From: Akkermansia massiliensis
GTDB lineage: Bacteria; Verrucomicrobiota; Verrucomicrobiia; Verrucomicrobiales; Akkermansiaceae
NCBI RefSeq assembly: GCF_023516715.1
Contig: NZ_JAMGSI010000002.1
Location: forward strand, 868,001-932,000
Length of the DNA stretch: 64,000 nt
Direction of reading: 5' to 3'
The notes below the pieces were generated by a model. That model worked only from the letters and a program-made list of their open reading frames with translations, was not told the DNA's origin and did no database searches. This document shows, piece by piece, positions 7,976-32,817 of this stretch; within the stretch, counting starts at the first letter, position 1, and each line of letters starts with the position of its first letter. Both the position numbers and the translations under genes were made by a program.

Positions 7976-8065
7976 GGGCAGGTGTCAGAGTGGTCGAATG
8001 AGCACGCCTGGAAAGTGTGTGTACTGGCAACAGTACCGAGGGTTCGAATCCCTCCCTGTCCGCCA
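7976..8065 (+). tRNA. tRNA-Ser (anticodon GGA)
   Basis: Class II tRNA with a long variable arm, decoding UCC/UCU. The acceptor stem pairs GGGCAGG (7976-7982) with CCTGTCC (8055-8061, one G-T pair), followed by discriminator G and an encoded CCA (8063-8065). The anticodon stem-loop is CACGC-CTGGAAA-GTGTG with anticodon GGA at 8010-8012. The variable arm TACTGGCAACAGTA and the T-arm GAGGG-TTCGAAT-CCCTC are intact. The gene's 3' end is the attachment site of the adjacent mobile element, which regenerates a functional tRNA on insertion. Confidence 0.95.
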
Positions 8066-8067
8066 TT
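8047..8067 (+). repeat. attL: element core site inside tRNA-Ser 3' end
   Basis: A 21-bp sequence covering the tRNA T-arm and acceptor 3' strand, repeated in direct orientation at 31048-31068 with one difference (C at 8060, T at 31061). It marks the left end of the integrated element next to the integrase gene. Confidence 0.88.
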
Positions 8068-8115: not shown

Positions 8116-8158
8116 CATATCGTGATTGTACCGCATTCGACCCGATTGCATGAAAAAA

Positions 8159-8206
8159 GGGTACATATTAGGGTACACTTTTACAATATGTACCCTAATG
8201 TACCCC
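8159..8206. repeat. Left cluster of integrase arm-type sites
   Basis: Four copies of GGGTACA: two forward (8159-8165, 8171-8177) and two inverted (TGTACCC at 8189-8195 and 8199-8205). They lie between attL and the integrase start. The same 12-bp spaced forward pair recurs at the right end (30995-31013). Such paired sites at both ends are expected for arm-binding by a tyrosine integrase or excisionase. Because they cover the integrase promoter region they may also autoregulate the gene. Confidence 0.65.
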
Positions 8207-8235
8207 ATCGCAAATTCCAACTGATTTTTAAGGCT

Positions 8236-9438
8236 ATGGCTGGATTGAAAAAACGGAACAATACATGGTTTGCCTCCTATTACGTCAATGGCAAAAGAAT
8301 AATCAAAACGACCAAAATAGAGGTCTCCCCTTCGACGATTCTCCCCGGGAAGACAAAAGCCAAAATGGAGGCCGAGCTCAAGCTGAATGCACAAATTATC
8401 GCCAATGAATTGGAGAAGGCCGCCAAAGGAGAAAAGGCAAACACCGAAATCGTCCATGCGGTAGCCGGATCTTCCAAGGCAAAGGCTCTGCTCAAAGGCA
8501 AAGCCCATATGCAGGGAGTGGATGATTTTTTGAAAGACTGGATGAAGTCCCGTACGGAAAAAGGGGCTGTTGACCGTGATGGAAAAGCTGTCCGACAATT
8601 CTTGTGCTATCTGGATGACCGCAAAACCCTTCCTCTGGATGCCGTTACTCCTCATCATGCAGAAGAATTCATGGCAAAAGAATTGGAGCGTGTATCCAGC
8701 GGAACAGTGAAGAGGTATCTTGAATCCTTGACGTGTGCCTTCAATAGCGCTGTCAGCAAAAGGATCATTACGATCAATCCTTTCAAAGGAGTCATTCCCT
8801 CCAAAAGCTCTCGGAATGACAGGCAGGAACGAGATGCCTTTTCCGTAGAGGAAGTACAAAAAATGATTTCCGACTTTCCGAATGAATGGCCCGATATGAT
8901 ACAGGTCTGCCTGTATACGGGAGGGCAACGTTTGGGTGATATCGCCAAGCTGAAATGGGAGCAAATCGATTTGGAAGGAGGGCGAATCTCCATGACCTCG
9001 GAAAAGACAAAGAGAAGAATGAACAAGCCCGTTATTGAGCAATTGAAAGAAATTCTACAGAGACGGCACGAGAAAAAAATCAATGATTACGTCTTCCCTC
9101 TGTCGGCCATGCGCCACTCACAAGCAGGCAACTCAAGCAAGCTCTCATGGGACTTCACTGAGCTGTTACGCAAACATGGATTGATTGTCCGGCACGATCA
9201 GAAAGCCCAGGGAAACAGAAGAACCCTTGCGGAAAAAAGTTTCCATAGTTTAAGAGCCACTGCCGTTACCATGTTGCGCTCCATGGGGGTGTCTCCGGAT
9301 ATGGCCCGTTATATTGTTGGTCATGATTCGGAGGACATCGAACGAGGCTATTACCGTCCACAGGAAGAAGCGGTAGCTGAATCCATAGCTCAACTGGGAC
9401 AAGCCATATCGCCGCAATCCCCCTCCAAGCCTGCATAA
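8236..9438 (+). CDS. Tyrosine recombinase/integrase
   Basis: Predicted 400-residue phage-type integrase that inserts and excises the element at tRNA-Ser. The arm-binding N-terminal region (GLKKRNNTWFASYYVNGKR) is followed by a core-binding SAM-like domain (about 95-180). The catalytic domain has Arg232 (TGGQRLGDIAKLKW), His337 and Arg340 (HSLRATAV), His363 (IVGHDS) and the tyrosine nucleophile at 372/373 (GYYRP). The start at 8236 is chosen because the open frame upstream covers the GGGTACA site array and does not look like protein. The strand points into the element, away from the tRNA. Confidence 0.93.
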   Translation: MAGLKKRNNTWFASYYVNGKRIIKTTKIEVSPSTILPGKTKAKMEAELKLNAQIIANELEKAAKGEKANTEIVHAVAGSSKAKALLKGKAHMQGVDDFLKDWMKSRTEKGAVDRDGKAVRQFLCYLDDRKTLPLDAVTPHHAEEFMAKELERVSSGTVKRYLESLTCAFNSAVSKRIITINPFKGVIPSKSSRNDRQERDAFSVEEVQKMISDFPNEWPDMIQVCLYTGGQRLGDIAKLKWEQIDLEGGRISMTSEKTKRRMNKPVIEQLKEILQRRHEKKINDYVFPLSAMRHSQAGNSSKLSWDFTELLRKHGLIVRHDQKAQGNRRTLAEKSFHSLRATAVTMLRSMGVSPDMARYIVGHDSEDIERGYYRPQEEAVAESIAQLGQAISPQSPSKPA

Positions 9439-9465: not shown

Positions 9466-9503
9466 ATCCCCCTGAGTATCCGTGAGAACTCAGGGGGATT
9501 TTC
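9466..9503. terminator. Bidirectional terminator between integrase and helicase genes
   Basis: AATCCCCCTGAGT (9466-9478) pairs with ACTCAGGGGGATT (9488-9500), with A-rich left and T-rich right flanks. It sits between the two converging genes. Confidence 0.85.
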
Positions 9504-9568
9504 ATTTATCATGCAGTTTCCGTCAAACTATTCGACATTTTGCATAATATGCTTTCAATCAAATTGTT

Positions 9569-12500: not shown

Positions 12501-12503
12501 GGG

Positions 12504-12809: not shown

Positions 12810-12834
12810 AACAATTATGTTGTTAATGTTATGC

Positions 12835-12863
12835 TTGAGTCAGCCGCCTCAATCCCCTATAAT
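12835..12863 (+). promoter_or_regulatory. Strong sigma-70-like promoter for a small RNA
   Basis: TTGAGT (12835-12840), exactly 17 bp, then a consensus TATAAT (12858-12863). No protein gene follows on the plus strand; a terminator ends the unit at about 12940. Confidence 0.6.
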
Positions 12864-12869
12864 AAGTTC

Positions 12870-12940
12870 CGACTAAAGAGATCATCATTGAGTGATTCAG
12901 GCCTGCCTCGGAATTTGGATCTCCGGGGCAGTTGCTTTTT
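12870..12940 (+). ncRNA. Candidate small RNA of about 70 nt
   Basis: The stretch runs from a consensus promoter (12835-12863) to a Rho-independent terminator. CTGCCTCGGA (12903-12912) pairs with TCCGGGGCAG (12922-12931), followed by TTGCTTTTT. The region contains no open frame of useful length and lies between two minus-strand genes, divergent from the helicase-primase operon. That placement suggests a regulator of element replication or copy control, but no target is known. The 5' end is a prediction. Confidence 0.5.
12903..12940 (+). terminator. Rho-independent terminator of the candidate small RNA
   Basis: A ten-base-pair stem with one G-T wobble and a nine-base loop, followed by a T-rich tail on the plus strand only. 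Confidence 0.7.
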
Positions 12941-13109
12941 CAAGCGGGTTGCTTGGAAAGTACCCTTTGTCGATCCGTCTGGATCTTGAAACAAAGAAGA
13001 AGCTCTTTCCGGTGCTCAATGAACCACAGATGATGAAAATAATGTACCTGCCATTTCCTCCGTAAGTTGTATGGAGGTAATGAATGTTTATAGCAAATGA
13101 CTTATAAGG

Positions 13110-14162
13110 CTATTTAATCAGCACTTTTTGTAGCCATGAAAATCCCCACCGTTCAAGAAACCTGCTTCTGTTGCGAGATCGTTGGTCTTTTTCTGCCTTG
13201 TTGTATGTACTCAAATCCTTCGCAATCCGTCCCAGTGTAGTTTCCGTATACTGGGAGTTTCCGTATTTCCTGACGAAGATATCTCCAACCTCTTTTTGTG
13301 TAGGAATCCTCTGATGCTCCATCACAAATTCTTTCATGATCTCCTTTAATGCTTCCCATTCAGTATCATCTGATTGTTCTCTCAAGACATCAATACTCAT
13401 TTGATCTATCAATTTTCCCCATACGGCAATCTGAGCAAAATTTTCAGAGTCTCTGGATTCTTTGAGTTTTTGAGCGAACTCAGTCCCGGCATGGTGACTC
13501 TTCTCCAAAAATTCAATTTGCAGTCTTAATTGAGCCATGATTCCTTGTTGATATGCCATCCATCCCTTTTCAAGCAATGATGGATCGTTCATCAAATAAG
13601 AAAAATGTTGTTTCAAAAACCTTAACTTCCAAACAATCGTTAGATTATCCGGATAACGGCGTTCAGCTTTCTTCAAGCATCCCCACAATAATCGGAATGA
13701 TTTTTGACCTGAATGAGTATTTAATATGTTTAGTTCAACAGAAGACCATTCTACATGCTTAATATCAGAATTCATGGCTTTCTGCAGCTGTATTTCTTTT
13801 TGAATTTCCTCAGCCTTGAAATGCCATAACGCAGCTGCAAAATCAGGATTTAACCTTTTTCCTTGGAGAACACCTTGTTTTTGCAACGACCAATTACCTT
13901 TGGTAGGAACACTGTGTTTTTTACAAAATACCAAAATGCTTGTTTTAATGTCATGTCGGACATGTACAGATTTTTCCTTCCCGTCATAGATGATGTAGCC
14001 ATCCTGCAAGTCCTCAGAGCAAAAGAGTTTATACTCAGTCTGAATTTCCGGAAGACATTTTGAGAGAACACAATTCAGTAGTAACTGGTGTTCTTTCCAA
14101 AAAGCAGTCCAGTCCCATGAAACTAATTTTCGGGCTTCAATAGGTTTTTCCTCAGCTGACAT
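13110..14162 (-). CDS. Hypothetical protein of the element
   Basis: A 350-residue soluble protein with no recognised domain. It is rich in Trp, Lys and Glu, with long predicted helices. The C-terminal part has an HTH-like stretch (HQRIPTQKEVGDIFVRKYG) followed by a very basic end (RSRNRSRFLERWGF), which hints at nucleic-acid binding. It is separated by 300 bp (holding the candidate small RNA) from the replication operon and reads in the same direction. A role in replication or regulation of the element is possible but unproven. Confidence 0.5.
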   Translation of the reverse strand: MSAEEKPIEARKLVSWDWTAFWKEHQLLLNCVLSKCLPEIQTEYKLFCSEDLQDGYIIYDGKEKSVHVRHDIKTSILVFCKKHSVPTKGNWSLQKQGVLQGKRLNPDFAAALWHFKAEEIQKEIQLQKAMNSDIKHVEWSSVELNILNTHSGQKSFRLLWGCLKKAERRYPDNLTIVWKLRFLKQHFSYLMNDPSLLEKGWMAYQQGIMAQLRLQIEFLEKSHHAGTEFAQKLKESRDSENFAQIAVWGKLIDQMSIDVLREQSDDTEWEALKEIMKEFVMEHQRIPTQKEVGDIFVRKYGNSQYTETTLGRIAKDLSTYNKAEKDQRSRNRSRFLERWGFSWLQKVLIK

Positions 14163-14215
14163 GGTCTGTCAGCATACACCCACGAATCCCCGGGATACAA
14201 GAGACAAATCCCCGC

Positions 14216-14515
14216 CTAAAGTTTTCCAAACAACTTCGGATATTTCTTCCGCATCTCTTCGTGATATCCTCTGTCAATGATCCTCGCACGGAGACTTTTA
14301 ATGGCTTTCTCCCTCTGCTCGTTATCGGGATTCACCTCCAGATAACATTCCAGGTCGTTACTGAGACGACGGCCATCCTGAAGGATCGTCGTGTTGTAAT
14401 AGGCCAGAGGTTCCGTCACCTCCTCAAAAACATAATCCGCCTGTCCCGGAAGGTGCGTCTCCTCAAAAGGAAAAGCCGACATCAACAGTCCTGAATTATT
14501 CACACGGAACCCCAA
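14216..14515 (-). CDS. Hypothetical protein, 99 residues
   Basis: A small acidic soluble protein with a charged helical C-terminus (RARIIDRGYHEEMRKKYPKLFGKL). There is no recognised domain. It reads in the same direction as its neighbours, with gaps of 53 and 73 bp. Coding is supported mainly by composition and position. Confidence 0.4.
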   Translation of the reverse strand: MGFRVNNSGLLMSAFPFEETHLPGQADYVFEEVTEPLAYYNTTILQDGRRLSNDLECYLEVNPDNEQREKAIKSLRARIIDRGYHEEMRKKYPKLFGKL

Positions 14516-14588
14516 GGGGCCAGGTTCCTTGAAATTCTGTGTATAATGAAGAGAAGAAAGGGGCGAGTGGCTCCACCGAATATCTGCA

Positions 14589-15362
14589 TTATTCAGGAAA
14601 TTGATTATTTGCTGAATACCAATATCCCATGGCTTTCGTCACATAAAGGCGTTTGACAACTTTCCTGCGCTTATGATTCTTCTTCAAAGAGGCCAGCAGA
14701 GAATCCGCGTCCCGCAGGCAAATGATACGTCCTCTACGGCAGATAATAGAGTCTTCTTCCATGGTCTTGAGAGCCTTATTCACTTGTGATAAAGAAATCT
14801 GGCCGGATTTCTTCAGGATGGAATTGCATATGTGCTTCTGACTGGGCAGGAAATTGCAGTTCAACAATGTCTCCGCGACCTGAATAGCCACACCCGTATA
14901 AGGATTCTTCATGGCAACGGGCAATGGCTTGAACTGATTTCTGAATCCGCTTCTCATCATGAAAAATCCTTTCCCTAAAAGAACTCCGTTTCCGCAAAAG
15001 TCGACACCACTCAAATTGTGTTGTTCCAAGGTTTCCAAATTTTGTGCCGAAAGATATGGGGTGATGAGAAGTGGAGGTGGGGAAGAAAAGACTGCCGCCA
15101 AGCTGTCGGATGAAAGACAATTCTTTTGCTTGAGCTCTTCCAGTACCTTCAGAAATTTTTTGGCAGTCAACCGCTCTGCTTCAACAATAGTGAAATTGCG
15201 TGTTGTGCCAGGTGCAGAAGGATTTTTGCCGGAAAATTCGAATCTAGCCTGATCGGAATCGGGATCAATCTCATTATCAAAAAGAGGGGACTGAGTTTTA
15301 AAAACCATACGTCCCCCCAGAAAGGAACGGTGTGATTGAAGAAATGTTAACTTACGCTTCAT
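14589..15362 (-). CDS. Winged-helix regulator with a nuclease-fold-like N-terminus
   Basis: 257 residues. The middle segment PYLSAQNLETLEQHNLSGVD followed by FCGNG resembles a family of transcriptional regulators related to AbiEi antitoxins. In those proteins an I/L-x-x-x-Y-h-S ... G-V-x-h-x-D/C-x-G-N motif precedes a winged helix. Here the winged helix is seen at about residues 180-225 (KKSGQISLSQVNKALKTMEE). The C-terminus is basic (KKNHKRRKVVKRL). No toxin partner is adjacent, so it may act alone as a regulator. Confidence in DNA binding is moderate. Confidence 0.5.
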   Translation of the reverse strand: MKRKLTFLQSHRSFLGGRMVFKTQSPLFDNEIDPDSDQARFEFSGKNPSAPGTTRNFTIVEAERLTAKKFLKVLEELKQKNCLSSDSLAAVFSSPPPLLITPYLSAQNLETLEQHNLSGVDFCGNGVLLGKGFFMMRSGFRNQFKPLPVAMKNPYTGVAIQVAETLLNCNFLPSQKHICNSILKKSGQISLSQVNKALKTMEEDSIICRRGRIICLRDADSLLASLKKNHKRRKVVKRLYVTKAMGYWYSANNQFPE

Positions 15363-15881
15363 GGCCGCAATTATAAAACATGCTGCCGTAAGAACAATAT
15401 CTCAAATAAACGTAAACCTTTTGTATTCAATCATGAAAATCACTTCCGCAAGATTATCTCCGCAATGAAATGCATCCCTTTTCTTTTCCCTCGCCAGTCC
15501 ACCAGTTTTTCCTTATTCCGCAAGGCAAAGAACATATCAGCCTTTATAGCAACAGACATGATGAAACGTGAAAATTCATGGAATTTGTCTATGATGAAAC
15601 GATCTGGAATATTGTCATACAAACTTTCACAGGCGCTCAATTTCTTCCCTGCTGTGTAATTCAGTCAAAACCAGCTCGTTTGAGTGCCAAAATCCTGGAA
15701 TTACAGGAGGAAACTCATGAAAATTTCTTCTAAAACGCATCCATTTCAACAGATGGATACTTATAAAGCATTCATCAAGAATGCGTAATTGATCACTCTA
15801 TTCGAAATTTCATGATTTTGAGATTTTATTTTCTTATCCTACGGAGTCATCCTCCCAAGTCCGCTCCGATTCCCCCAACTC
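15363..15881. other. Intergenic stretch with weak small ORFs
   Basis: About 520 bp without a convincing gene. A 66-codon minus-strand frame (15440-15640) has ordinary amino-acid composition but no visible ribosome site. A 23-codon plus-strand frame with a strong ribosome site is listed separately. Confidence 0.4.
15717..15788 (+). CDS. Possible 23-residue small ORF with strong ribosome site
   Basis: AGGAGG at 15705-15710 lies six bases before the ATG at 15717, the best Shine-Dalgarno in this part of the element. The peptide (MKISSKTHPFQQMDTYKAF...) ends after 23 codons. It could be a leader peptide or the surviving start of a lost gene. Confidence 0.25.
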   Translation: MKISSKTHPFQQMDTYKAFIKNA

Positions 15882-16862
15882 TTAATCAGTATTATTTCCC
15901 ATATTTTTTTCTCCGAAGACGATAATCACCTTCTTGATTTCGACAAAGGTGTAATACAATAATATGGCTTCAGGGATCCCTATGGCATAGGATAGCCATA
16001 AAGGTTGGTAAGGGATAAAAAGAGCAGAAATACAATCAATAATGAAGGAAATCACGTATCCGAGAGCATATCTGGGATGAAAAACAATATTTTTCATATT
16101 CAGGTTGTCTGCCATTTTTTGAGCGCGTTCCAGTAGCCCGGGCCATGCGGTAAACGCCCAATAAAAATTGAAGAGAGGAATAAAGAGAAAGCCAACTGCT
16201 TTTTCAGGTGAAGGTATGGGTTCTCTCGAAGGAATCAGGTAACTGAGAGGTTGAATATATTTCCATGCTTCATACAGTTTCATGAGGACGTAAATCATCA
16301 GCCCCAGAAGTAACAGTAGGCCTACTACACTCATCGTGTCGTTACCCTTGATTTCTGCCTGAGTCATGAAATGCCCCGCTGTGACATAGGCCATCACAAA
16401 CCAGCCCAATCCCTTTTTGGCTTTTTTATCTACTTCCTCTACATCAAAACTATGATTATTTACAGGGGGCGGCGGGAATGCAGAGTTTGTCCTGAAATCG
16501 GTTTCATCAGTATTTTTGATCAAATGATGAATAGGTTCCCAATTGTCCATACCTTCCGTCCAAAAATAATCTGAAGGTTGGGATTTCCCCTGTCGCAGCA
16601 TATCTCTAAGAGTTGCGATGTCGAAAGGGCCAGTTTGAGTGCCGTCTTGAGCCAAAAGGCGATATTTTTTCTCTTCCTGGTGCGAAGAATTAGGCGGACG
16701 CTCCGCTTCCAGAACAAGATGGATAGGGCTCCACGAGGAACGGCCATTCTGTGAGACCAATTCTTCCTTGTCGATACGTCCGGCTTTCAACATGCTGCGG
16801 AGCTGCTCTTCATCATAAGGGCCTTCGTGTTTCCCTTGTTTGTTGTAAATGTAATAGGACAT
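15882..16862 (-). CDS. Membrane protein with two GYF_2/DUF4339 domains
   Basis: 326 residues. Two tandem GYF-like domains occupy about 1-55 and 66-115, each with the G-P-[FY]-D ... LR.ML..G ... W.PIH pattern. A short linker leads to about four membrane segments between residues 150 and 315 (for example VVGLLLLLGLMIYVLM and YALGYVISFIIDCISALF). GYF_2 domains are thought to mediate protein contacts, here presumably in the cytoplasm. It is the last gene of a five-gene minus-strand operon whose members all look membrane-linked. Function unknown. Confidence 0.7.
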   Translation of the reverse strand: MSYYIYNKQGKHEGPYDEEQLRSMLKAGRIDKEELVSQNGRSSWSPIHLVLEAERPPNSSHQEEKKYRLLAQDGTQTGPFDIATLRDMLRQGKSQPSDYFWTEGMDNWEPIHHLIKNTDETDFRTNSAFPPPPVNNHSFDVEEVDKKAKKGLGWFVMAYVTAGHFMTQAEIKGNDTMSVVGLLLLLGLMIYVLMKLYEAWKYIQPLSYLIPSREPIPSPEKAVGFLFIPLFNFYWAFTAWPGLLERAQKMADNLNMKNIVFHPRYALGYVISFIIDCISALFIPYQPLWLSYAIGIPEAILLYYTFVEIKKVIIVFGEKNMGNNTD

Positions 16863-16881
16863 GATTGTAAATTGCTTGCGT

Positions 16882-17493
16882 TTAGTAATATCTCCTTTGC
16901 CTCAATGCATCCTTTATGGTTTCAGCTTGGGGATTGCCATACACTCGTCCCTGTCCGCCGCAGTTGGGACAGACGGAACGGAATCCGTTGGAATATAAAA
17001 TACCGGTACCATCACATTGCAGGCATGGTAAGGCCTGTTGAGGTTCTGCCTGGCGTTGCGCTTGGGTAGCCATGCCTGCTCCTATCAACATTCCTATGGC
17101 AGCCGCTTCATCATTGGACATGGATTGGGAATAAGACGACTGAGGAAATGAAGATGAATATCCGCGATCATAATAAGGTTGTCGGCTTGGTTCATTGCCT
17201 GCCAAAAGGATAATGAAAAGAAGCGCGACAAAACCAATGCCGGCACCTATGATCATTCTCCTTTTTTTAGTCAGTTTGAAACCTGAAGGCGGATTTACCT
17301 GATGATTGCGCCTGTTGCTCTGAGGATGAATATCATCAAGAACTTTATATAGAGGTATCCATTGATTCATGCCCTCACACCAAACGAGAGCAGCCCCGAG
17401 AATTTCCTTTCTTTCCATCATTGATACAATTTGGGCAGGAGAATATGGACCGTCCGGTTGTCTCCCGGCCCGGTAGATGTAATAGGCTTTCAT
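16882..17493 (-). CDS. GYF_2/DUF4339 membrane protein with DnaJ-type zinc motifs
   Basis: 203 residues: a GYF_2 domain at about 1-55 (DGPYSPAQIVSMMERKEI ... WIPLYKVLDDI), a basic patch, one membrane helix (IGAGIGFVALLFIILLAG), a Ser/Tyr/Gln-rich linker, then two CxxCxGxG-type motifs (CLQCDGTG and CPNCGGQG) as in the DnaJ zinc finger. The architecture suggests a membrane-anchored adaptor with a zinc-stabilised tail. It lies 19 bp before the other GYF_2 gene and 23 bp after the 359-residue gene. Function unknown. Confidence 0.7.
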   Translation of the reverse strand: MKAYYIYRAGRQPDGPYSPAQIVSMMERKEILGAALVWCEGMNQWIPLYKVLDDIHPQSNRRNHQVNPPSGFKLTKKRRMIIGAGIGFVALLFIILLAGNEPSRQPYYDRGYSSSFPQSSYSQSMSNDEAAAIGMLIGAGMATQAQRQAEPQQALPCLQCDGTGILYSNGFRSVCPNCGGQGRVYGNPQAETIKDALRQRRYY

Positions 17494-20578: not shown

Positions 20579-22150
20579 CTAATACCTAAGTCTTTTCTTT
20601 TGTAACTTCTCACGAATATTTCTTATTTTCTCCTGATCTTCAGAAGATAGGCCAAGCTTCGAAAGTATCATTTGATCTTGTGTCTCCAAAAAATCATTTA
20701 TCTCTTCCTTTGATTGAATATTAAAAGAAAAGAAAGAATATCTTCCCTCCTCGAAATTTGTGATATAGATCGGCAGAGATTTAAATTCAGAGGGAGTTAA
20801 CTCCAATACCCCGCCTCCATAAAAACGTCCATTCAATTCAGCCCATGTTAAAGTAAGAGAATTAAAAAATGAAAAAAGTAAGGAATTAATAGAAAATCCT
20901 GTTTTCATATGGATCCCATATGCCGCATCAGTAGTAAGAATGTGTGCATCATTTTTCATAAATTTAGGTAATAAATGACATCTCTTAAAGAAAAAGGCTT
21001 CCGCTGGCTTGGGAATATTCGGAATGATATACCACTTGTCTCGTTTGAGCATTTTATACCGCTGATCTAATTGTTTAAGTTCTCCCTGTTCAAGATATTT
21101 TTGTGCTTTTGATAATATAGGTATGGATTTTTTGCTAAAATCGAGAAGATTTGTCGGTTGTCCAGAACGACGAAGAGAATTAAATTCCTTTTTAGTCAAT
21201 GAAAATTTTTGGAGAAGTCCTGTTGCTCGCTGAACTATGGGACGAGCATAATCGTGAAGATCGTATTCTTGGATAGTATTATCATCTACGATAAAAAAAC
21301 TATTTGCTGCTGTTACAACTCCAGGGGCAGATGAAAGGTATTTTGAAAGAGGAAAACAATCTTGAGAAATGCGATGCAAGTAATCTATTTCTTCTGCAGA
21401 TAGCAAATAATGGCTCCATTTACTTTCTTCTACACGCTGGAGTTGTTGCAAGGAAACAACGTTTTGGGAAGAAGCATTTGGTATAGTAGTGAAGAAAACA
21501 CCACGTTTGACAGACTGTTTCCTACAAACGAGTAACATGGTATCTTGCCCTTTACAGGTATCAAACATAAGATCTTCGAAAGTAATAAATTCAATTGAGG
21601 AAAATAGCTTAAGCAAATGGTAACGAATATCTTCAGCATATTTAACGGCAAGAAATTCTGTAGGAATAACAAAAGCTAACACACCAGAATCATTTAATAA
21701 CTGAGTACTGGCAATGACAAAAAAAGCCCATAGATTAGTAACCCCTTTAAAATCATAATTATTTTCTCTAAAATATTTGACAATTTTTTCGTGCTGCCCC
21801 TTCATATATAAGTTCTTTTTAATATAAGGAGGATTACCAATAATAAGATCATATCTACGAACACAATCTACCGAATAATCAATAAAGTCTTCATTATAAC
21901 AATAAACGTGTGGGTAACTTTTTTGCAGTAAAGAGATAGCCCGATGATCAATATCCACTGCATCGATATGCCATTTTTGAGAAAAGCAAGGATGTTCAAT
22001 AATTTCTTTAATAAAGGCTCCCTCTCCTGCACTAGGTTCTAAAATAATAAGATCATTTTTATTCTCTAGAATATCTTCGATACGACTTTTCAAAAGTCGT
22101 ACCATTTGCGGAGATGTATAGTAAGCTCCTTTAGATTTTTGTATACTCAT
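20579..22150 (-). CDS. Eco57I/TaqI-type N6-adenine DNA methyltransferase
   Basis: 523 residues. SAM-binding motif I is EPSAGEGAF (38-46) and the catalytic motif IV is IIGNPPYIKK (NPPY at 106-109), the gamma-class adenine methyltransferase signature. The N-terminal KGAYYTSPQMVRLL is also typical. The C-terminal half contains a target-recognition-like region (FYGGGVLELTPSEFKSLPIY). No nuclease motif is seen within the protein. It is the last gene of a four-gene operon with one- to four-base gaps, strongly AT-rich. It would mark host DNA, with cutting presumably done by the HNH protein encoded just upstream. Confidence 0.85.
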   Translation of the reverse strand: MSIQKSKGAYYTSPQMVRLLKSRIEDILENKNDLIILEPSAGEGAFIKEIIEHPCFSQKWHIDAVDIDHRAISLLQKSYPHVYCYNEDFIDYSVDCVRRYDLIIGNPPYIKKNLYMKGQHEKIVKYFRENNYDFKGVTNLWAFFVIASTQLLNDSGVLAFVIPTEFLAVKYAEDIRYHLLKLFSSIEFITFEDLMFDTCKGQDTMLLVCRKQSVKRGVFFTTIPNASSQNVVSLQQLQRVEESKWSHYLLSAEEIDYLHRISQDCFPLSKYLSSAPGVVTAANSFFIVDDNTIQEYDLHDYARPIVQRATGLLQKFSLTKKEFNSLRRSGQPTNLLDFSKKSIPILSKAQKYLEQGELKQLDQRYKMLKRDKWYIIPNIPKPAEAFFFKRCHLLPKFMKNDAHILTTDAAYGIHMKTGFSINSLLFSFFNSLTLTWAELNGRFYGGGVLELTPSEFKSLPIYITNFEEGRYSFFSFNIQSKEEINDFLETQDQMILSKLGLSSEDQEKIRNIREKLQKKRLRY

Positions 22151-22151
22151 C

Positions 22152-22727
22152 CTAGGAAACCCTTAAAAATTCAGTCATATCATAGTATGCCTCTATCACT
22201 TCATCTAAAGCATTTTTAAGATCGATATTATCAGGATACTGTTTTTTGAGTTGCCGAGCTTCATTTACAAGAATTGTAAGACGATCTAGCCACCAAATAA
22301 GTGCATATTTTGTTAAATAAAGTTTCATTCGTTCGTACATATGCTGAGCTATTTTTTGATGCGGAGCATCAGAACGTATTATTATTCTCCCAAAACAATT
22401 GCGGGCAAAATCCTTGTTAAAGTCAATATCACATGGATCAAGATATTCACAAGAATGATCATCACTTTTAGCAATATTAACACTCGCGCAACAATAAACT
22501 AGATTTTCATATGTATGAATCAAATCTTTGTAATATTTTTTAGATTTTAAATGATCAATATGGAAGCAAGAAGGTCCTCCAAACCAACCATCACTGCAAA
22601 AGGTATATCCACAACGTTTTTTAAAATCTTCTCTTAACTGATCTTTGTATGCACGATAATGGGATTTAGGTAGGCCTCGGTATCCACGGGAGGGTGCATA
22701 ATATGGATCTCGGAAATTATAATACAT
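22152..22727 (-). CDS. HNH endonuclease-like protein
   Basis: 191 residues. The zinc-stabilised HNH core is visible: Cys39 and Cys44, His56 and His59 in FHIDHLKSKK, Asn75 in YENLVYCC (Cys79/80), then Asn84 and Lys87 in VNIAKSD. The N-terminal 35 residues are basic (LPKSHYRAYKDQLRED). The C-terminal 90 residues are helical and perhaps contact a partner. It lies one base before the methyltransferase and two bases after the receiver gene, so it is probably the DNA-cutting component of the system. Confidence 0.75.
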   Translation of the reverse strand: MYYNFRDPYYAPSRGYRGLPKSHYRAYKDQLREDFKKRCGYTFCSDGWFGGPSCFHIDHLKSKKYYKDLIHTYENLVYCCASVNIAKSDDHSCEYLDPCDIDFNKDFARNCFGRIIIRSDAPHQKIAQHMYERMKLYLTKYALIWWLDRLTILVNEARQLKKQYPDNIDLKNALDEVIEAYYDMTEFLRVS

Positions 22728-22729
22728 GA

Positions 22730-23395
22730 TTAAGATTTTTTTAATTCATTAACAATATTTTCTAATTTTTCCAAGGAACAACTTAATTTATTTAAATATG
22801 ATTCTGATTTATATTGATTAGGAATTCTATTAGATTTTCCCCCATAAACTTCTTCTAGAAAGGAATCATCCTGTAGAAATTGAGAAGTTTCTTGAGAATT
22901 CAAGCGATCCCCATTTTCTATTTTGGAAATTATGTATTTATAACGCTCTTCTGCTTCTCTAATCAATCTTTTGCGAGTTTCTATTTGTTTATATACTCTA
23001 TCCCAAAAACAAACAGTATCACTATAGCATTCTTGTAATACCTGAGATTTAGTATATACATGGTTAATATCATCTGCTTCCGAAGTCGCATTTTCGGCCC
23101 AAGCAGTCAAAACAAAAAAAGGAATTAAGCAGCATCTTTTTTTGTACGCTCTAACAATATCTTCTCCTGTATAATCAACCTGATAACTCATATCACATGT
23201 ATTATTATTTAGCATAAAATCAGTAATAACGGCATCATAATCTCCCTCTATAATTTCATTAATCATATCATCAAGATTAAGTCGAGGGTAGATCGGAATA
23301 AAATCGAATTTCATTTCAAAATCACTAAGTGATAGAGCATTTCCAATTTCTCTCCATGCTCTTTTTTCCTCATCTATATAAAGCAACTTATACAT
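22730..23395 (-). CDS. Response-regulator receiver protein with helical C-terminus
   Basis: 221 residues. Receiver-domain residues are in place: acidic pocket Asp8-Glu9-Glu10 (YIDEEKR), phospho-acceptor Asp59 (AVITDFML), Thr97 (FFVLTAWA) and Lys116 (YTKSQ). The C-terminal 90 residues are charged and helical with no DNA-binding domain, so output is probably by protein contact. It lies four bases after the GHKL kinase gene, its likely phosphodonor, and two bases before the HNH gene. A receiver inside a restriction-like operon is unusual. Confidence 0.8.
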   Translation of the reverse strand: MYKLLYIDEEKRAWREIGNALSLSDFEMKFDFIPIYPRLNLDDMINEIIEGDYDAVITDFMLNNNTCDMSYQVDYTGEDIVRAYKKRCCLIPFFVLTAWAENATSEADDINHVYTKSQVLQECYSDTVCFWDRVYKQIETRKRLIREAEERYKYIISKIENGDRLNSQETSQFLQDDSFLEEVYGGKSNRIPNQYKSESYLNKLSCSLEKLENIVNELKKS

Positions 23396-23399
23396 AAAA

Positions 23400-25913
23400 C
23401 TAATAAAGCATAGTAAAATACATACAGAATCCTTTTAAATTTCTATTTAAAGAAATTTCTCCTCCGTAATTATGAATTATCGTTTTAACAATCCACATCC
23501 CCAATCCAGTCCCTATGGGCTCTCCTGTCTTCACGTCTCTTTTAGTAGTTATTAAAGGATCAAAAATAATTTCAGGAGGATTTAAATCCAATGAAAGCCC
23601 CGGCCCATTATCACGATATGTAAATTTTATTACTTTAGGATTATCTTCAATTGTACATTTAATAAAAATTTCTCGTTTATTAGTAGACAAAGAAAATGCA
23701 TCTATAGAATTAATTATAAGGTTATTAAATATACTATCTAAATCAATTTCTAAACTTTGAATGAATACATTTTCAGGAGTATCACAAGAAAGAGCAATGC
23801 CTTTAACTGAAAGAAATGGTTCCCAATTTTTTTGTAATTTTAGAAAATAATTTTTAAGTGAAATTTGTTTGCGATTTCGTTTGTCTTTACGAGCAACTCT
23901 TTTAGCGAAATCTATCCATGCTGCAATTTTTCGATCGTCATCCTTATAATCTTCTATCATTCGGAATGGATTGAGTGAATCTTGGCATCCTTTTTGAAGT
24001 AGATCCTCTTCTTTGAGGTGACGTTCTAGCGTTTTTTTCAACCTTAGCATACGGGTTTCTTGAATAGCTAACTGTTGACTAAAATCATGTCCGAAAGTAG
24101 CCATAACTAAACCATTACTTGCCATAGCCCTAAGCAGGCTTTGTTCTTCCCGAATAGTTCTTTCCAATTCTAGAACTTTATCTCTTTGTTGCCGAGCATA
24201 TTTTGCCATGGCAATCACTTTAGGATCTAAGTCTTGTGGATCTAATAGGGTTTCGCTGTTAGTTAATTCTTCGACAAGACGTTCTCCTGTTTTAATTTCT
24301 TCTGGTATATTTATTTTTGATTGCTCTTTTGAGTAAGATTTAAGCTCTTTGACTATTGTAGAACGATCCTTTTCTAATTCTGCAATAATCTCAATAATTA
24401 ACATTTTAAAAAGATTAAATGCATCTCCTTCCTGCAAACCTTCACGGCTGGACTTATCTTCAAAACATGGATTAAGAAGGCGAGATATTTCAATAACCCC
24501 ACTAAGGTTATTAACTTCCATTCGATAACCACCTAAATTTCTCCCAACGCCTGCCGGGCTTTTAGCTTTTCTTGGTCCTAAAGATAACCAGTCAAAAGCT
24601 GATTCTCGGGGGTCACCATAGGGACGAACCCGAAAGTTGTCTCTGAAAATTTTGATACCTTTGAATGTTTCAAGCCATTGTTGACGTTGGCCGCTCTGAT
24701 AATTGATATTACGATAAAAGTACAATGAAATGTCCTTAGGGCGAACCGAGCGTTTTAGGTAGTAAAGAGTTAATGAAAAAGGCCCTAACTTAGCAATTTG
24801 CTCATGGGGCATGCCCGGAAGAAGGGTGAAAATAGACTTTGTCAAAGCAAAACCTTTATCAGAAAATTCTGAACGTCGATATGGGAATTTTTTCATTTTC
24901 CCACGTTCAAAAAAATCATCCGGTATTTTATTTACATCATATTCTCGCCGAATTATATGCAAATTGAGCTTTCCATCAACATTAACATCAGCTCTCAATT
25001 TATAATCAAAATCATCACATATACTGCTCAAAACTTTTCCATATTCATGGGGTTGTTGGATATGCTCGAAAATAATAGAAAATTCCTCGTTCCCCAACGG
25101 TGGAGTAAGAATGACAAGGTCGTTAAAAAGGTTAGTTATGTCTTTGGAAAACCAATCATCTCGCAATTGTGTAATGCGCAAACAAGTACCAGTAGACATT
25201 TCAGAGAGGTTTTCTAATGATCTTTTTGAAAGGGCAGGATAATGTTGAAGTAAACATTCAAAATAATTAGAATCGTTAATATTTTCTAATATTGCTGAAA
25301 CATCTTCAATTTTTTTGCCTTCACCATCAAACTCATTCCAATTAACAGTCCATTTAATAGCTTGAAGATGTTTCTTTTTTGTGAATGATATCATTTCACA
25401 TTGCTCTCCCAAACGATCTAAAGCAAAACGCCCAATGCCTTTAGCTCCAGATTTAATTCTATCTTTAATATTACTTTTGAAATTAATTAACTTATTTTGA
25501 GTGCCAATGACCATCCAATGATCTTTTACAACATCTGAAGACATTCCTTCTCCATTGTCAATAATATATATACTTGACAATTTTTTGCAAAAATTATTAT
25601 AATCAAGATCTTGTTGTGCTGTTAAATTTGCTCGTTTCTTAGCCACATTAAAATTAACTTCAAAATAAGAATTTAATTCTTCTTTAGACAATCCTGTTTG
25701 CTCTACGCGTGTTAATACTATATTCCATTTTTCGCAAGAAAGGATTTTCGTCTCATTTGTCAAAGGTATATCAAATATGATTAAGCATTTTTTTGAATCA
25801 GCATCATAAGAATTTTTGACCAATTCAATTATGGCACCGCGAGCGGACGCAACATTCTCTCGGCCGATAAGCCTGGCTGTACGAGCAGAAACAGTAAAAG
25901 GAAGTCTTTCCAT
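23400..25913 (-). CDS. Dual GHKL protein: MORC/Hsp90-like ATPase fused to a histidine-kinase-like domain
   Basis: 837 residues, no membrane segment. The N-terminal GHKL ATPase has IIELVKNSYDAD (about 28-39), IYIIDNGEGMS (about 114-124) and GAKGIGRFALDRLG (about 155-168), as in MutL/MORC/Hsp90 proteins. A helical middle follows. Around residue 609 is an H-box-like FGHDFSQQL, then an N-box IFNNLIINSIDAF (about 728), a G1 box DNGPGL (about 768) and a G2 box GTGLGMWIVK (about 801), i.e. a histidine-kinase catalytic domain. It opens the operon with the receiver, HNH and methyltransferase genes. Role inferred: sensing invading DNA and signalling by ATP turnover and phosphotransfer. Confidence 0.8.
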   Translation of the reverse strand: MERLPFTVSARTARLIGRENVASARGAIIELVKNSYDADSKKCLIIFDIPLTNETKILSCEKWNIVLTRVEQTGLSKEELNSYFEVNFNVAKKRANLTAQQDLDYNNFCKKLSSIYIIDNGEGMSSDVVKDHWMVIGTQNKLINFKSNIKDRIKSGAKGIGRFALDRLGEQCEMISFTKKKHLQAIKWTVNWNEFDGEGKKIEDVSAILENINDSNYFECLLQHYPALSKRSLENLSEMSTGTCLRITQLRDDWFSKDITNLFNDLVILTPPLGNEEFSIIFEHIQQPHEYGKVLSSICDDFDYKLRADVNVDGKLNLHIIRREYDVNKIPDDFFERGKMKKFPYRRSEFSDKGFALTKSIFTLLPGMPHEQIAKLGPFSLTLYYLKRSVRPKDISLYFYRNINYQSGQRQQWLETFKGIKIFRDNFRVRPYGDPRESAFDWLSLGPRKAKSPAGVGRNLGGYRMEVNNLSGVIEISRLLNPCFEDKSSREGLQEGDAFNLFKMLIIEIIAELEKDRSTIVKELKSYSKEQSKINIPEEIKTGERLVEELTNSETLLDPQDLDPKVIAMAKYARQQRDKVLELERTIREEQSLLRAMASNGLVMATFGHDFSQQLAIQETRMLRLKKTLERHLKEEDLLQKGCQDSLNPFRMIEDYKDDDRKIAAWIDFAKRVARKDKRNRKQISLKNYFLKLQKNWEPFLSVKGIALSCDTPENVFIQSLEIDLDSIFNNLIINSIDAFSLSTNKREIFIKCTIEDNPKVIKFTYRDNGPGLSLDLNPPEIIFDPLITTKRDVKTGEPIGTGLGMWIVKTIIHNYGGEISLNRNLKGFCMYFTMLY

Positions 25914-25922
25914 TTTCGGGTT

Positions 25923-25951
25923 ACATTACTACATTGATTTTGCCTTTTCAA
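25923..25951 (-). promoter_or_regulatory. Candidate promoter of the GHKL-HNH-methyltransferase operon
   Basis: On the minus strand, TTGAAA (25946-25951), a 17-bp spacer and TAATGT (25923-25928) lie just before the ATG at 25913. Transcription would begin only a few bases from the start codon, so the message would be nearly leaderless unless another promoter lies upstream. Confidence 0.35.
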
Positions 25952-26142
25952 GAGTATTGCTTTTGTATTTCATAATTATTTCATTATAATTCAGTTGTGA
26001 TTTATTTTAGATAAAAAAGAGGAGTCGATTGGACAACCTCTTGAACGCCTTCCTTAGACAACATGTCGTCTTGGAAGGCATGTCTCACCGCCGGGCGATG
26101 AGATTGTAAATGGCTTGGAGTAATTGCGCGAGGATCATGGAA

Positions 26143-28169: not shown

Positions 28170-28204
28170 TTGCATAAATATACTGTTTGTGTATATTTAC
28201 GCAA
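28170..28204. promoter_or_regulatory. Probable AbiEi autoregulation operator
   Basis: TTGCATAAATATAC (28170-28183) and GTATATTTACGCAA (28191-28204) are inverted repeats with one mismatch, ending 12 bp before the abiEi start codon. AbiEi antitoxins are known to bind inverted repeats in their own promoter. Confidence 0.6.
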
Positions 28205-28216
28205 TCAAATAACGAA

Positions 28217-29041
28217 ATGGAAGGATTTACCGTCAGATCCTGGATACAGGAACAGGCAACTCAAGGTCGCCTGTTTTTTACTCGTGAAGAGATACTGAAA
28301 GCACTACCCGATACGTCTAAACAGACAGTGGCAGTTGGGCTGTTGCGTGCCCGGGAAACTCGCCTCATTTCTATCGCCTGGCAGGGATTTTATCTCATTC
28401 TTCCCCCTGCTTACGTCAAACAGGGGACATTGCCTGTCACCATGTATTTGGACGCATTGATGAAGTATTTGGAACGTTCCTATTGTGTTGCGCTGCTCAA
28501 TGCTGCAGCATTCTACGGAGCCGCTCATCAGAGTCCCCAAACTTTTGCTGTCATGACGACCATACCCGTTCCCCGGTCCAGAACCCAACATGGCACACGA
28601 TTGGAGTTCGTGGGAAAGCGGGAGTTCAGTCAAGGTATCCCTCCTGAACTGCTCAAGGAGTTCAAAACTCCTTCCGGATACATTCAAGTTTCTTCTCCGG
28701 AATTCACGGCCTTGACGTTGGTTCAATATGCCGGGCGCATTGGAGGACTCTCCCGTGTGTTGACGGTACTGGAAGAACTTTTGGAAGCCTGCCATTTCGA
28801 TCATATGCCGGGCAGTATCCTATCGTGCGTACCTCTGCCTTGTTTTCAACGACTCGGCTATATGATAGAAGTCCTTCTGGGGGATAAAGAACAAAGCCGT
28901 AGCCTGTACGCATTTTTGGAAACTCATCGCCAGCCTTTGCAAAAATCCCTTTTGTCTTTGGAAAGCCCTGTCAAAACAGGAACAGCAGATAAACGCTGGA
29001 AACTTATCATCAACGAAACTCAGGAAAGCGACCTCTCATGA
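28217..29041 (+). CDS. abiEi: AbiEi-type antitoxin/transcriptional regulator
   Basis: 274 residues from the ATG at 28217, chosen over an upstream ATG at 28187 that lies inside the operator. An N-terminal winged helix (RLFFTREEILKALPDTSKQT) is followed by the AbiEi core with GFYLILPPAY, SYCVALLNAAAFYGAAHQSP and a LEFVGKREF segment, as in type IV antitoxins. It would repress the operon and counter the nucleotidyltransferase toxin without direct binding to it. The last bases overlap the toxin start as ATGA (29038-29041). Confidence 0.8.
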   Translation: MEGFTVRSWIQEQATQGRLFFTREEILKALPDTSKQTVAVGLLRARETRLISIAWQGFYLILPPAYVKQGTLPVTMYLDALMKYLERSYCVALLNAAAFYGAAHQSPQTFAVMTTIPVPRSRTQHGTRLEFVGKREFSQGIPPELLKEFKTPSGYIQVSSPEFTALTLVQYAGRIGGLSRVLTVLEELLEACHFDHMPGSILSCVPLPCFQRLGYMIEVLLGDKEQSRSLYAFLETHRQPLQKSLLSLESPVKTGTADKRWKLIINETQESDLS

Positions 29042-29826
29042 TTCCCGAATACTTTGTCCGATCATGGGCATCACAAGCACCATGGCCCCGGAATGAACTT
29101 GTCGAACAGGACATGATCATATGCCGTGCCTTGATTGCCATTTTCTCAGATCCATTTCTTGCAGAGCATCTGGCTTTTAGAGGTGGAACGGCTCTTCATA
29201 AATTGTATCTGTCGCCCCAGCCCCGGTATTCCGAAGACATTGATTTGGTTCAGATCCATGCCGGCCCCATCAAGCCGATTTTGGACCACCTCCGTGAAGC
29301 TCTGGCCTTTCTGGGTGAACCTAAAACAAAAAGAGCCAGCCATAACAATACCCTTGTCTACAGGCTGGAATCAGAGATTCTCCCTATCATGCCTATTCGG
29401 CTGAAGGTGGAAATCAATTGCCGTGAGCACTTTCATCAGCTGGATTGGGTACATCTTCCGTTCCGCATGAACAATGATTGGTTTTCCGGCGAGTGCCGCA
29501 TTACCACTTATGAACTGGATGAACTGCTCGGCACCAAAATGAGAGCACTTTATCAAAGGCGAAAAGGACGTGACCTATTCGATCTGCACCGGGCTCTTTC
29601 CGAAGGAACAACTCATGCAGATCGCATTCTTTCGTGTTTTCGCACCTATATGGAATTCGTAGTCGACAGATCTCCTTCGCAAAAGGAATTTGTAATGAAC
29701 CTTGAGCAGAAGATGTCCGACCCTGTGTTTCTTGGAGATACGGAAGCCATTTTACGTCCCGATACGGACTATGATCCAGCCCATGCGTTTGAACATGTTA
29801 TGGAGAGACTGATCTCCAAGCTGTAG
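29038..29826 (+). CDS. abiEii: AbiEii/AbiGii-type nucleotidyltransferase toxin
   Basis: 262 residues. The nucleotidyltransferase signature is complete: FRGGTALHKLYL followed by RYSEDIDLVQ (the D-x-D metal site). The helical C-terminal region has the family motif ELDELLGTKMRALYQRRKGR then DLFDL. Toxins of this family stop growth in phage-infected or plasmid-free cells, in some cases by modifying tRNA with nucleotides. It is translationally coupled to the antitoxin gene and serves both defence and element maintenance. Confidence 0.87.
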   Translation: MIPEYFVRSWASQAPWPRNELVEQDMIICRALIAIFSDPFLAEHLAFRGGTALHKLYLSPQPRYSEDIDLVQIHAGPIKPILDHLREALAFLGEPKTKRASHNNTLVYRLESEILPIMPIRLKVEINCREHFHQLDWVHLPFRMNNDWFSGECRITTYELDELLGTKMRALYQRRKGRDLFDLHRALSEGTTHADRILSCFRTYMEFVVDRSPSQKEFVMNLEQKMSDPVFLGDTEAILRPDTDYDPAHAFEHVMERLISKL

Positions 29827-31047: not shown

Positions 31048-31068
31048 AATCCCTCCCTGTTCGCCATT
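31048..31068 (+). repeat. attR: right core site of the element
   Basis: A direct repeat of 8047-8067 (20 of 21 bases identical), equal to the 3' end of tRNA-Ser. It marks the right junction of the element. Confidence 0.88.
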
Positions 31069-31255: not shown

Positions 31256-32326
31256 ATGAAAGAGATTCCTGCTCCAAATCTGCAAAGCGTGAGTCCTGTG
31301 CACGTCCAGTTTGGGAAAGTGATCCCTGCTCAACAACAGATTTTGCTCTATAATTTTTCTGATTGGGAGGATTTCGTGCATGAATGGGTTAATAGTCAAA
31401 GGTCGAAGTATCTTCAGGTCTTACGTATGTCAGGCCCAAATGATAAGGGAATTGACGTAGCTGGATATACAGACAAAGAAGGATTACATGGAGTTTGGGA
31501 TAATTTCCAATGCAAACACTATAAAGACGCCTTGACCCCTGCAACGGCAATAATAGAAATAGGCAAAATACTATGGTATTCGTATTCAGGTGATTTTAGA
31601 GCACCAAGATATCATTATTTTATTGCTCCAAAAGGCTGCGGAATGAGTTTAGTAAGATTATTAGGCGACAGAGTTGCTCTAGCAACAAAAACAATAAATG
31701 AATGGGATAAATGTTGCGCAGAAAAAATAACAAACATCCGTAAAATTAATTTAGAGGGCGAGTTTAAAAAATATGTAGAAAATTTTGATTTCTCTATTTT
31801 TTCACATAAAACACTGCTCGAAATAATTGATGATCATAAGTTTACACAATATCACGCTGCACGATTTGGAGGAGGATTGCAACCTCGACCACCAGCCATA
31901 GAACCTCCTGAGTCTCTCCAAAGTAATGAAAGTCATTACATTCAGCAATTATATGAAGTTTATGAAGAAAAAACTAAGGCTAGAATTAGCGAAAAATGCC
32001 ACTTAGAGACATATCCTGACTTATTAAAACATTTTAGTCGACAACGAGAGTTTTTTTATCACGCTGAATCGTTGCGGAATTTCGCCAGAGATAATGTACC
32101 TCCAGGGACATACGAAGATTTACAAACTGAAGTTTATGCAGGAGTTATTGATATTCATGATTTCACGCACAACAATAGTTTTTCTCGTCTCGGAGCAGTT
32201 TTACAAGCGGCATCCTCATTACAACTTACGTCAAATGCACTTATAAGCGTAATAAAAGTGCAGGACAGAAAAGGAATTTGTCACCAACTTGCTAATGATA
32301 ATAGATTAGAATGGAGGCAGAAATGA
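31256..32326 (+). CDS. ABC-3C system component with Mrr-like restriction endonuclease domain
   Basis: 356 residues. The N-terminal part (about 25-150) has a restriction-endonuclease-fold pattern: WEDFVHEWV, then an Asp in GPNDKGIDVAGY and the Gln-x-Lys-type core in WDNFQCKHYKDAL. The rest is helical and matches the ABC-three-component (ABC-3C) C-terminal region, ending near DRKGICHQLANDNRLEWRQK. In such systems this protein is the effector that attacks DNA when released by the ATPase. It overlaps the next gene by 4 bp (ATGA). The operon is markedly AT-rich compared with the chromosome. Confidence 0.75.
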   Translation: MKEIPAPNLQSVSPVHVQFGKVIPAQQQILLYNFSDWEDFVHEWVNSQRSKYLQVLRMSGPNDKGIDVAGYTDKEGLHGVWDNFQCKHYKDALTPATAIIEIGKILWYSYSGDFRAPRYHYFIAPKGCGMSLVRLLGDRVALATKTINEWDKCCAEKITNIRKINLEGEFKKYVENFDFSIFSHKTLLEIIDDHKFTQYHAARFGGGLQPRPPAIEPPESLQSNESHYIQQLYEVYEEKTKARISEKCHLETYPDLLKHFSRQREFFYHAESLRNFARDNVPPGTYEDLQTEVYAGVIDIHDFTHNNSFSRLGAVLQAASSLQLTSNALISVIKVQDRKGICHQLANDNRLEWRQK

Positions 32327-32817
32327 AAAATGAAGCCCATGAATGTTTAACATTTAATAGTCCATTAGAAGCAGGAATTAGATCTGTAGGCTTACTAGTC
32401 GCGTCTTATCCAAAATGTTTTGATATACAACAACTTGTTGTTTTTGATTACTTAGTCGTACATACGGGAGATATTAATGGACCAGAGAGTTTGCACCCTC
32501 AAATCCCTTTACGATCAACAGAATTGTTGGTACGCCGAAAATTAGTAGAAAATGGACTTCTTCTTATGATGAGCAGGAAGCTTGTTGTTCGACAAGCTTG
32601 CTCAGAAGGTATTTTATATCAAGCAGGAGAAATGGCTGAGACTTTTATGTTGTGTCTGACTTCTCCATATTTGTTGGAACTAAAAAAACGTTCTATTTGG
32701 GTTATAAATCACTTTGGATATATGAACTACGATCATTTAAAAAAAATCATTCGAGAATTTTTTAATCATTGGGTCGAAGAATTTCAAGATGTTCAACAAA
32801 GTTTAGAAGTAAAATAA
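32323..32817 (+). CDS. ABC-3C middle component
   Basis: 164 residues from the ATG at 32323, which overlaps the previous stop as ATGA and has GGAGG just upstream; the ATG at 32311 is less likely. The protein is a small helical, winged-helix-like domain (GIRSVGLLVASYPKCFDIQQ, then LLVRRKLVENGLLLMMSRK), the pattern of the middle component in ABC-3C operons. It is thought to bridge the ATPase and the effector. The stop and the next ATG share a base (TAATG). Confidence 0.7.
   Translation: MKNEAHECLTFNSPLEAGIRSVGLLVASYPKCFDIQQLVVFDYLVVHTGDINGPESLHPQIPLRSTELLVRRKLVENGLLLMMSRKLVVRQACSEGILYQAGEMAETFMLCLTSPYLLELKKRSIWVINHFGYMNYDHLKKIIREFFNHWVEEFQDVQQSLEVK

Follow-up and report, generated by a model that had tools for sequence, protein, structure and literature searches.

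A conserved four-gene operon joining a MORC-like histidine kinase, a receiver, an HNH protein and an adenine methyltransferase in an Akkermansia massiliensis island

The window analyzed here is a 64,000-nucleotide stretch of the Akkermansia massiliensis contig NZ_JAMGSI010000002.1 (positions 868,001 to 932,000), from a genome of 3.28 Mb in three contigs rated 100% complete. Its positions 20579 to 25913 hold a four-gene operon that resembles a restriction-modification (R-M) locus built around a two-component relay. An original prediction, made without database searches, described four minus-strand genes separated by 1 to 4 bases, and the open reading frames (ORFs) do lie in this way, with gaps of 1, 2 and 4 bases:

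23400..25913, minus strand: sensor gene, 837 amino acids (aa); MORC-like GHKL+S5 ATPase (about residues 1-530), helical linker and DHp region with His609, and histidine kinase-type CA domain (about 681-837)
22730..23395, minus strand: stand-alone response regulator gene, 221 aa; receiver (Asp59, Thr97, Lys116) and C-terminal three-helix region
22152..22727, minus strand: HNH gene, 191 aa; PtuB/TIGR02646-like, T42/V83 subtype
20579..22150, minus strand: N6-adenine DNA methyltransferase gene, 523 aa; M.Eco57I/BseCI-like, with a C-terminal domain and an NPPY motif

Pfam placed HATPase_c_3 at residues 25-198 of the sensor and HATPase_c at 722-834, and both ATPase domains were found in all 46 sensor homologues scanned. 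In a profile of these homologues, the second half of the sensor aligned with kinases such as HK853 and His609 fell on their H-box histidine, so that the H-box-like segment proposed earlier holds. The AlphaFold sensor model (81 sequences; mean pLDDT 85.7, pTM 0.78) was compared with solved structures using Foldseek, in which MORC2 was first by E-value (3.3e-10), SMCHD1 and many histidine kinases ranked lower, and one MORC2-DNA structure was among the matches. VIA-align rows for the sensor were dominated by residues 592-837; model residues 16-523 matched mouse Morc3 (Z 18.1 over 298 residues, root mean square deviation 3.7) and residues 607-837 matched HK853 (Z 19.1), in agreement with the two predicted GHKL domains. 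Because Trap1 and Hsp90-type chains nearly equaled Morc3 (Z 17.4 and 17.3), fold alone does not decide between MORC and Hsp90.

The catalytic positions of the sensor are strongly conserved (here and below, residue counts cover sequence sets that include the window). E30 and N34 of the first ATPase occurred in 86/86 sequences, and D119, G121 and G123 were also conserved. His609 was found in 88/88, with Glu or Asp at the next position in 87/88, and N731 and N735 of the CA domain in 88/88; the sensor therefore has a phospho-acceptor histidine with an acidic +1 residue, plus N, G1 and G2 boxes. In HisKA kinases, the residue four positions after the H-box histidine is the Asn or Thr of a phosphatase motif; here, Asn or Thr stood at this position in just 23/88.

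The 221-aa receiver itself had no Pfam match, and at E ≤ 1 PF00072 (Response_reg) was found in 44 of its 77 homologues. The AlphaFold model of the receiver (mean pLDDT 93.3) showed a receiver fold followed by helices at 130-160, 167-185 and 198-220, and the first Protein Data Bank matches were VicR, EutV and RcsB. The protein shows the (beta-alpha)5 fold with the acidic pair, Asp, Thr and Lys, and the predicted Asp59, Thr97 and Lys116 were present as described and conserved in 87/87, 85/87 and 86/87 sequences (D8 in 84/86). Neither Pfam nor the model revealed a recognized DNA-binding or effector domain on it. Autophosphorylation of the sensor and transfer to the receiver are predicted from these conserved residues.

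The two remaining products also belong to the classes first proposed, an HNH protein and an NPPY adenine methyltransferase. The HNH protein fell below the Pfam cut-off (17.4 bits, E 0.0049) and is remotely PtuB/TIGR02646-like (PADLOC PtuB E 2.5e-10; TIGR02646 29.7 bits, cut-off 52.15), with H59, N75, N84 and K87 invariant in 87/87 sequences. These 87 form two subtypes, with Cys42 and Cys83 both present in 57, both missing in 30, and mixed in 0. Private decay of the window HNH was rejected, as the loss of both cysteines is a paired and recurrent subtype. The methyltransferase carried Eco57I and M_Eco57I_C domains (E 1.5e-36) and matched a PADLOC Type II methyltransferase model over its full length (PDLC03267, E 6.7e-126), and its best solved-structure match was M.BseCI. 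N106 was found in 81/82 homologues, P107 and P108 in 82/82, and Tyr or Phe at position 109 in 82/82. It shares catalytic and C-terminal domains with M.Eco57I and M.BseCI; unlike the setting of those enzymes, the operon has no PD-(D/E)xK-type restriction gene. Since catalytic residues are nearly invariant in all four proteins, all four activities look to be under selection.

The four genes are a conserved module. A scan of GTDB representative genomes gave at least 590 pattern matches and at least 426 relatives; the top 80 of these were taken, and viral contigs added four loci. Module profiles, seeded with the window and three or four plasmid copies, were then searched against every ORF in 90 loci and in the window itself. 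Three loci were dropped before the census (L007 and L008, with the sensor in two and three ORFs, and L009, below the score cut-off), leaving 87; the near-copies L036, L037 and L039 (97-99% in the sensor) were each counted. The receiver, HNH and methyltransferase genes lay directly downstream of an intact sensor, in the same order, in 77 of the 87 loci (window excluded), with median gaps of +1, -4 and -4 bases and an overlap of the HNH and methyltransferase genes in 58/77. Cultured carriers of all four genes include Gluconobacter wancherniae (L057) and Flavobacterium daejeonense (L010). Within this close family, sensor homologues are thus not usually apart from the other three genes, as the original prediction had allowed they might be.

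Among the exceptions, five lie where the sequence ends (L021, L045, L068, L080 and L092), three have the methyltransferase just upstream (L066, L088 and L093), an arrangement also seen on a Deinococcus plasmid, and L051 has a 70-aa receiver fragment followed by HNH and methyltransferase genes. Overall, 81 of the 82 loci with complete sequence had a methyltransferase gene next to the module (77 downstream in order, three upstream, and L051), L055 having none. At L055, the methyltransferase-less module is followed on the opposite strand (12962-16609) by a gene for a caspase-domain (Peptidase_C14) protein of 1215 aa. At L082 (3083-5546), an XhoI-like R-M pair lies immediately upstream of the operon copy (Eco57I-type methyltransferase of 577 aa; XhoI E 2.2e-97).

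Reciprocal searches gave the same linkage. Among 72,556 plasmid records, the HNH query matched five at E ≤ 1e-3, each of them with a sensor relative (in Rhizobium, the sensor ORF was split), and the receiver query matched three records, all among those five. In 288 genomes of the window's phylum, the receiver profile had two matches at E ≤ 1e-15 (the genomes G000 and G334), each carrying the complete module, in canonical order in G334. The HNH profile had five, these two (E 1.7e-55 and 2.1e-72) and three at E 8e-18 to 3.6e-17, and the sensor profile had four at E ≤ 1e-40, the same two and two with other gene sets. Chance adjacency of the four genes was rejected on the census together with the reciprocal HNH and receiver searches.

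Sensor-tree rows of known phylum fell into ten phylum-level groups, one of them archaeal, although this row is a Methanolobus metagenome bin in which contamination is possible. The tree was a quick one (LG+G4, no mixture), with the window row on a long branch. Bacteroidota and Pseudomonadota required 7 and 5 label changes along it, a scatter that is as expected for horizontal transfer but is no proof. Among 96 other genomes taken as relatives, none had the sensor at E ≤ 1e-30; an E. coli collection of 5,426 genomes held no match to the sensor-to-HNH part of the Enterobacter copy, and a phage search gave one weak record.

Correlations of protein distances (81 four-protein sets, window included; 500 permutations) reached 0.86 for sensor-receiver, 0.79 for receiver-HNH and 0.74 for sensor-HNH. 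Pairs that include the methyltransferase gave 0.31-0.36; all pairs exceeded the 500 permutations. The methyltransferases formed three groups of 49, 30 and 2 sequences, and their group changed at least 12 times on the sensor tree. Within the group of 49, sensor-methyltransferase was 0.67 versus 0.86 for sensor-receiver and 0.80 for sensor-HNH; within the group of 30, sensor-methyltransferase was 0.31. With the sensor held constant, receiver-HNH remained at 0.44 (reached by 0/1000 permutations), HNH-methyltransferase at 0.065 (11/1000) and receiver-methyltransferase at 0.014 (295/1000). The best correlate of HNH outside HNH itself was the helical tail of the receiver (0.73 and 0.70). The pair L062/L071 illustrates the pattern, with 63, 60 and 62% shared in sensor, receiver and HNH and 18% in the methyltransferase. 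These values are pointers and no proof. They have the pattern of a sensor-receiver-nuclease engine that stays together while its methyltransferase can be exchanged, and this speaks against HNH as a classical enzyme that shares its target site with the methyltransferase. Given receiver and HNH, a small sensor-methyltransferase link persisted (0.165, reached by 0/1000 permutations), compatible with a sensor able to read the mark.

The original prediction held that this pairing belongs to no nameable defense system. Neither sensor nor receiver had a match in PADLOC 2023 at E ≤ 1. The statement does not stand for the link of kinase, receiver and R-M, which had been predicted in 2021. Bellieny-Rabelo et al. 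2021 (PMC8011034) describe, in the text available, predicted paraMORC-type histidine kinases with adjacent receivers and R-M links (HEF_HK/Response_reg_2), and propose paraMORC descent and signaling to R-M. As far as that text goes, the window operon shares with those pairs a soluble sensor combining HATPase_c_3, His-bearing helices and HATPase_c, an adjacent receiver gene, and R-M neighbors. Unlike them, the window proteins match neither PF19191 nor PF19192 at E ≤ 1, the receiver has 221 aa versus the 600-aa query protein of the available text, the methyltransferase is an N6-adenine enzyme versus the C5 enzymes stressed there, and the set has a dedicated PtuB-like HNH and a fixed four-gene order. 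PF19191 was not among the 25 of 40 families listed for the 46 sensor homologues, nor PF19192 among the 25 of 133 listed for the 77 receiver homologues.

The four-gene set is taken as a separate branch because it lacks PF19191 and PF19192 matches and its sensor and receiver are unmatched in PADLOC 2023. A wider family exists around it, of which it is one tight branch, since related sensors and receivers in L009 (a Campylobacter plasmid; receiver gene of 340 aa) and L098 (327 aa) accompany a methyltransferase of the cytosine type, by annotation and by eye, respectively, and a distant homologue in L099 matches PF19191 HEF_HK below its cut-off (E 0.00062). The L099 kinase lies in a run of large same-strand genes (2532-14676), three of whose products (512, 661 and 1140 aa) had no Pfam match at E ≤ 0.01.

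Other systems share parts of this design. Iyer, Abhiman and Aravind 2008 (PMC2292703) reported paraMORC1 restriction operons, sometimes with HNH genes, which like the window have a GHKL+S5 ATPase in an R-M setting; in the available text of that paper the word receiver is absent and histidine kinase appears just in spelling out GHKL, and the window operon, unlike those operons, has no helicase gene. For VapKSC, the available text (PMC13373217) reports that the nuclease VapC dissociates and becomes active through phosphorylation of VapS by the GHKL kinase VapK; for VapKSC and CapKS alike, it reports a DNA signal after which a GHKL kinase phosphorylates a partner in control of a nuclease or an immune operon. 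Unlike the window operon, these use a STAS-GHKL kinase, a serine-bearing STAS partner and a VapC effector, and the words receiver and HNH are absent from that text. The Vibrio cholerae GHKL-Shedu nuclease is a different combination, as far as its report is available (PMC12137116). Detocs likewise uses two-component signaling in phage defense; it is a three-gene family whose best-described form has a PNP effector in the text available (PMC11249213), versus the HNH, methyltransferase and MORC-like sensor found here.

Three existing labels were considered for the family. In Detocs the effector domain sits on the response regulator, and this label was rejected for a set of four genes with a separate HNH and no effector domain recognized on its receiver. 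PtuB/TIGR02646 proteins of Septu and retron I-A share the HNH core; their HNH partner is a PtuA-type ATPase or a reverse transcriptase, whereas here the partners are sensor kinase, receiver and methyltransferase, and this label was rejected too, the sensor and receiver having no PADLOC match. Plain Type II R-M was set aside as a family label: the methyltransferase is of a Type II family, yet HNH hardly co-varies with it at constant sensor. No report of this four-gene set was found in the literature searched, supplementary tables, where single members may appear, lying outside the search. The module is real, conserved and, judged by sequence, catalytically intact, and its kind was partly anticipated in print as a prediction.

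We read the operon as an R-M system in which a phosphorelay licenses the nuclease, with a rough probability of 0.52. In such a system, the methyltransferase would place N6-methyladenine on host DNA at its target. Eukaryotic MORC ATPases clamp DNA with ATP, and the MORC half of the sensor would dimerize on foreign or unmarked DNA in an ATP-driven closure. Closure would line up the C-terminal kinase cores for autophosphorylation of His609, the phosphate would pass to Asp59 of the receiver, and the helical C-terminus of the receiver would release or activate the HNH protein, leading to a DNA cut. The functional steps are all inferred, as are the signal and the direction in which control runs. That phosphotransfer controls the nuclease is favored because the phospho-acceptors are invariant and sensor, receiver and HNH co-evolve, and by analogy to VapKSC, HNH may be freed by phosphorylation of its partner.

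A more specific form of this reading is tentative, and we hold it for somewhat less probable: the MORC clamp might itself read DNA, its own kinase half might pass phosphate to the receiver to arm a non-specific HNH, and the exchangeable methyltransferase alone might define self DNA. If true, this would be a new restriction class in which the kinase-receiver-nuclease engine is plug-compatible with different methyltransferases.

Several observations weigh against licensing by a phosphorelay. For the whole sensor, Foldseek gave low TM-scores (against MORC2, 0.25 normalized by query and 0.40 by target); low values are expected for a multi-domain model, but the match is not a strong one. The linkage figure holds for the close family, the best 80 of at least 426 relatives; L055 has no methyltransferase, and L009 and L098 have no HNH. 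Two of the four Zn-type cysteines, the second Cys of each knuckle, are missing from the window HNH (T42/V83), as they are from 30/87 sequences including the window. Shared ancestry and gene adjacency can also give distance correlations, and row permutation keeps ancestry. The nearest flanking genes at other loci are mixed: in 118 proteins encoded closest to the module at 74 loci (150-800 aa, one per side at most; no control), no PADLOC model exceeded 3/118 among the 25 of 55 families listed, and Pfam gave a mixed picture among the 25 of 101 listed. The literature searched held no experiment on the module, nor any experimental follow-up of the 2008 and 2021 papers.

The best-surviving alternative, which we consider unlikely, is an abortive or toxin-antitoxin-like module in which the kinase senses DNA damage or phage takeover and sets HNH free to destroy DNA cell-wide, and the methyltransferase guards against leakage or serves separately. 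Such a mode of action is reported for VapKSC, which has a GHKL kinase and a nuclease (PMC13373217, available text). The closeness of HNH to PtuB effectors, its slight covariation with the methyltransferase at constant sensor, by which it may be without a sequence specificity of its own, and the scarcity of Asn or Thr at +4 (23/88), a hint of a one-way switch, all point the same way. A methyltransferase beside the module in 81/82 complete loci, however, fits modification-based self-protection better than a plain toxin.

An ordinary Type II pair of HNH and methyltransferase, with sensor and receiver setting its expression or timing, is improbable. Adjacent genes that overlap in 58/77 loci and the full-length Type II methyltransferase match (E 6.7e-126) would suit it, but no DNA-binding domain is recognized in the receiver, whose model shows a helical tail, and methyltransferases swap among three groups (at least 12 changes) while HNH remains tied to the sensor, which is not the pattern of two matched enzymes. 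Equally improbable is a structural kinase and receiver with a MORC ATPase that loops or clamps DNA and no phosphate transfer, because His609, its acidic +1 residue, the CA N and G boxes and D59/T97/K116 are (nearly) invariant over 87-88 sequences, even though the available text of PMC2292703 reports MORC/paraMORC ATPases from restriction operons and proposes that they loop DNA.

The role of MORC-like ATPases in restriction operons was raised in 2008 (PMC2292703) and a kinase-receiver pairing predicted in 2021 (PMC8011034), as far as the available texts go. With one compact, widespread unit and named active-site residues, phosphotransfer gating of DNA restriction becomes directly testable. Defense surveys based on the PADLOC 2023 library would see at most HNH and methyltransferase, since sensor and receiver are unmatched there.

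The operon lies in a putative mobile island marked by the following features:

7976-8065: tRNA-Ser
8047..8067, plus strand: putative attL, the tRNA-Ser 3' end and two bases
8122..9438, plus strand: Phage_integrase-domain gene of the island (Pfam domain)
31048..31068, plus strand: putative attR, a 20/21 copy of 8047-8067

About 23 kb lie between the putative att copies (8047-31068) and enclose the operon and an AbiE pair; the integrase gene adjoins tRNA-Ser. The mobile island and AT-rich block of the original prediction are thus borne out, the latter by a G+C content of 0.31-0.35 over the operon (2-kb windows) versus 0.58-0.63 at 45-58 kb. The methyltransferase had no second match in its own genome at E ≤ 0.001. 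The AbiEi/AbiEii pair (28187-29826) lies inside the island and a Lamassu-type set directly beyond the putative attR (31256-34670; LmuA E 3.6e-118, LmuC 8.4e-53, LmuB 6e-175, with ABC-3C CTD6 and MC2 also matched in Pfam), and the operon is therefore in the company of known defense genes.

Promoter and terminator scans gave results no better than shuffles. Upstream of the sensor gene and read in its direction, 25914-26113 contains a near-palindromic stem followed by a T run, terminator-like by eye (for the preceding gene). At 11286-12500, a CHC2 zinc-finger/Toprim primase-like protein is encoded, which matches the PADLOC DnaG-like partner of defense reverse transcriptases (E 3.2e-20). Two adjoining GYF_2-domain proteins are encoded at 15882-17493, the first with two GYF_2 stretches and the second with CXXCXGXG-like motifs by eye.

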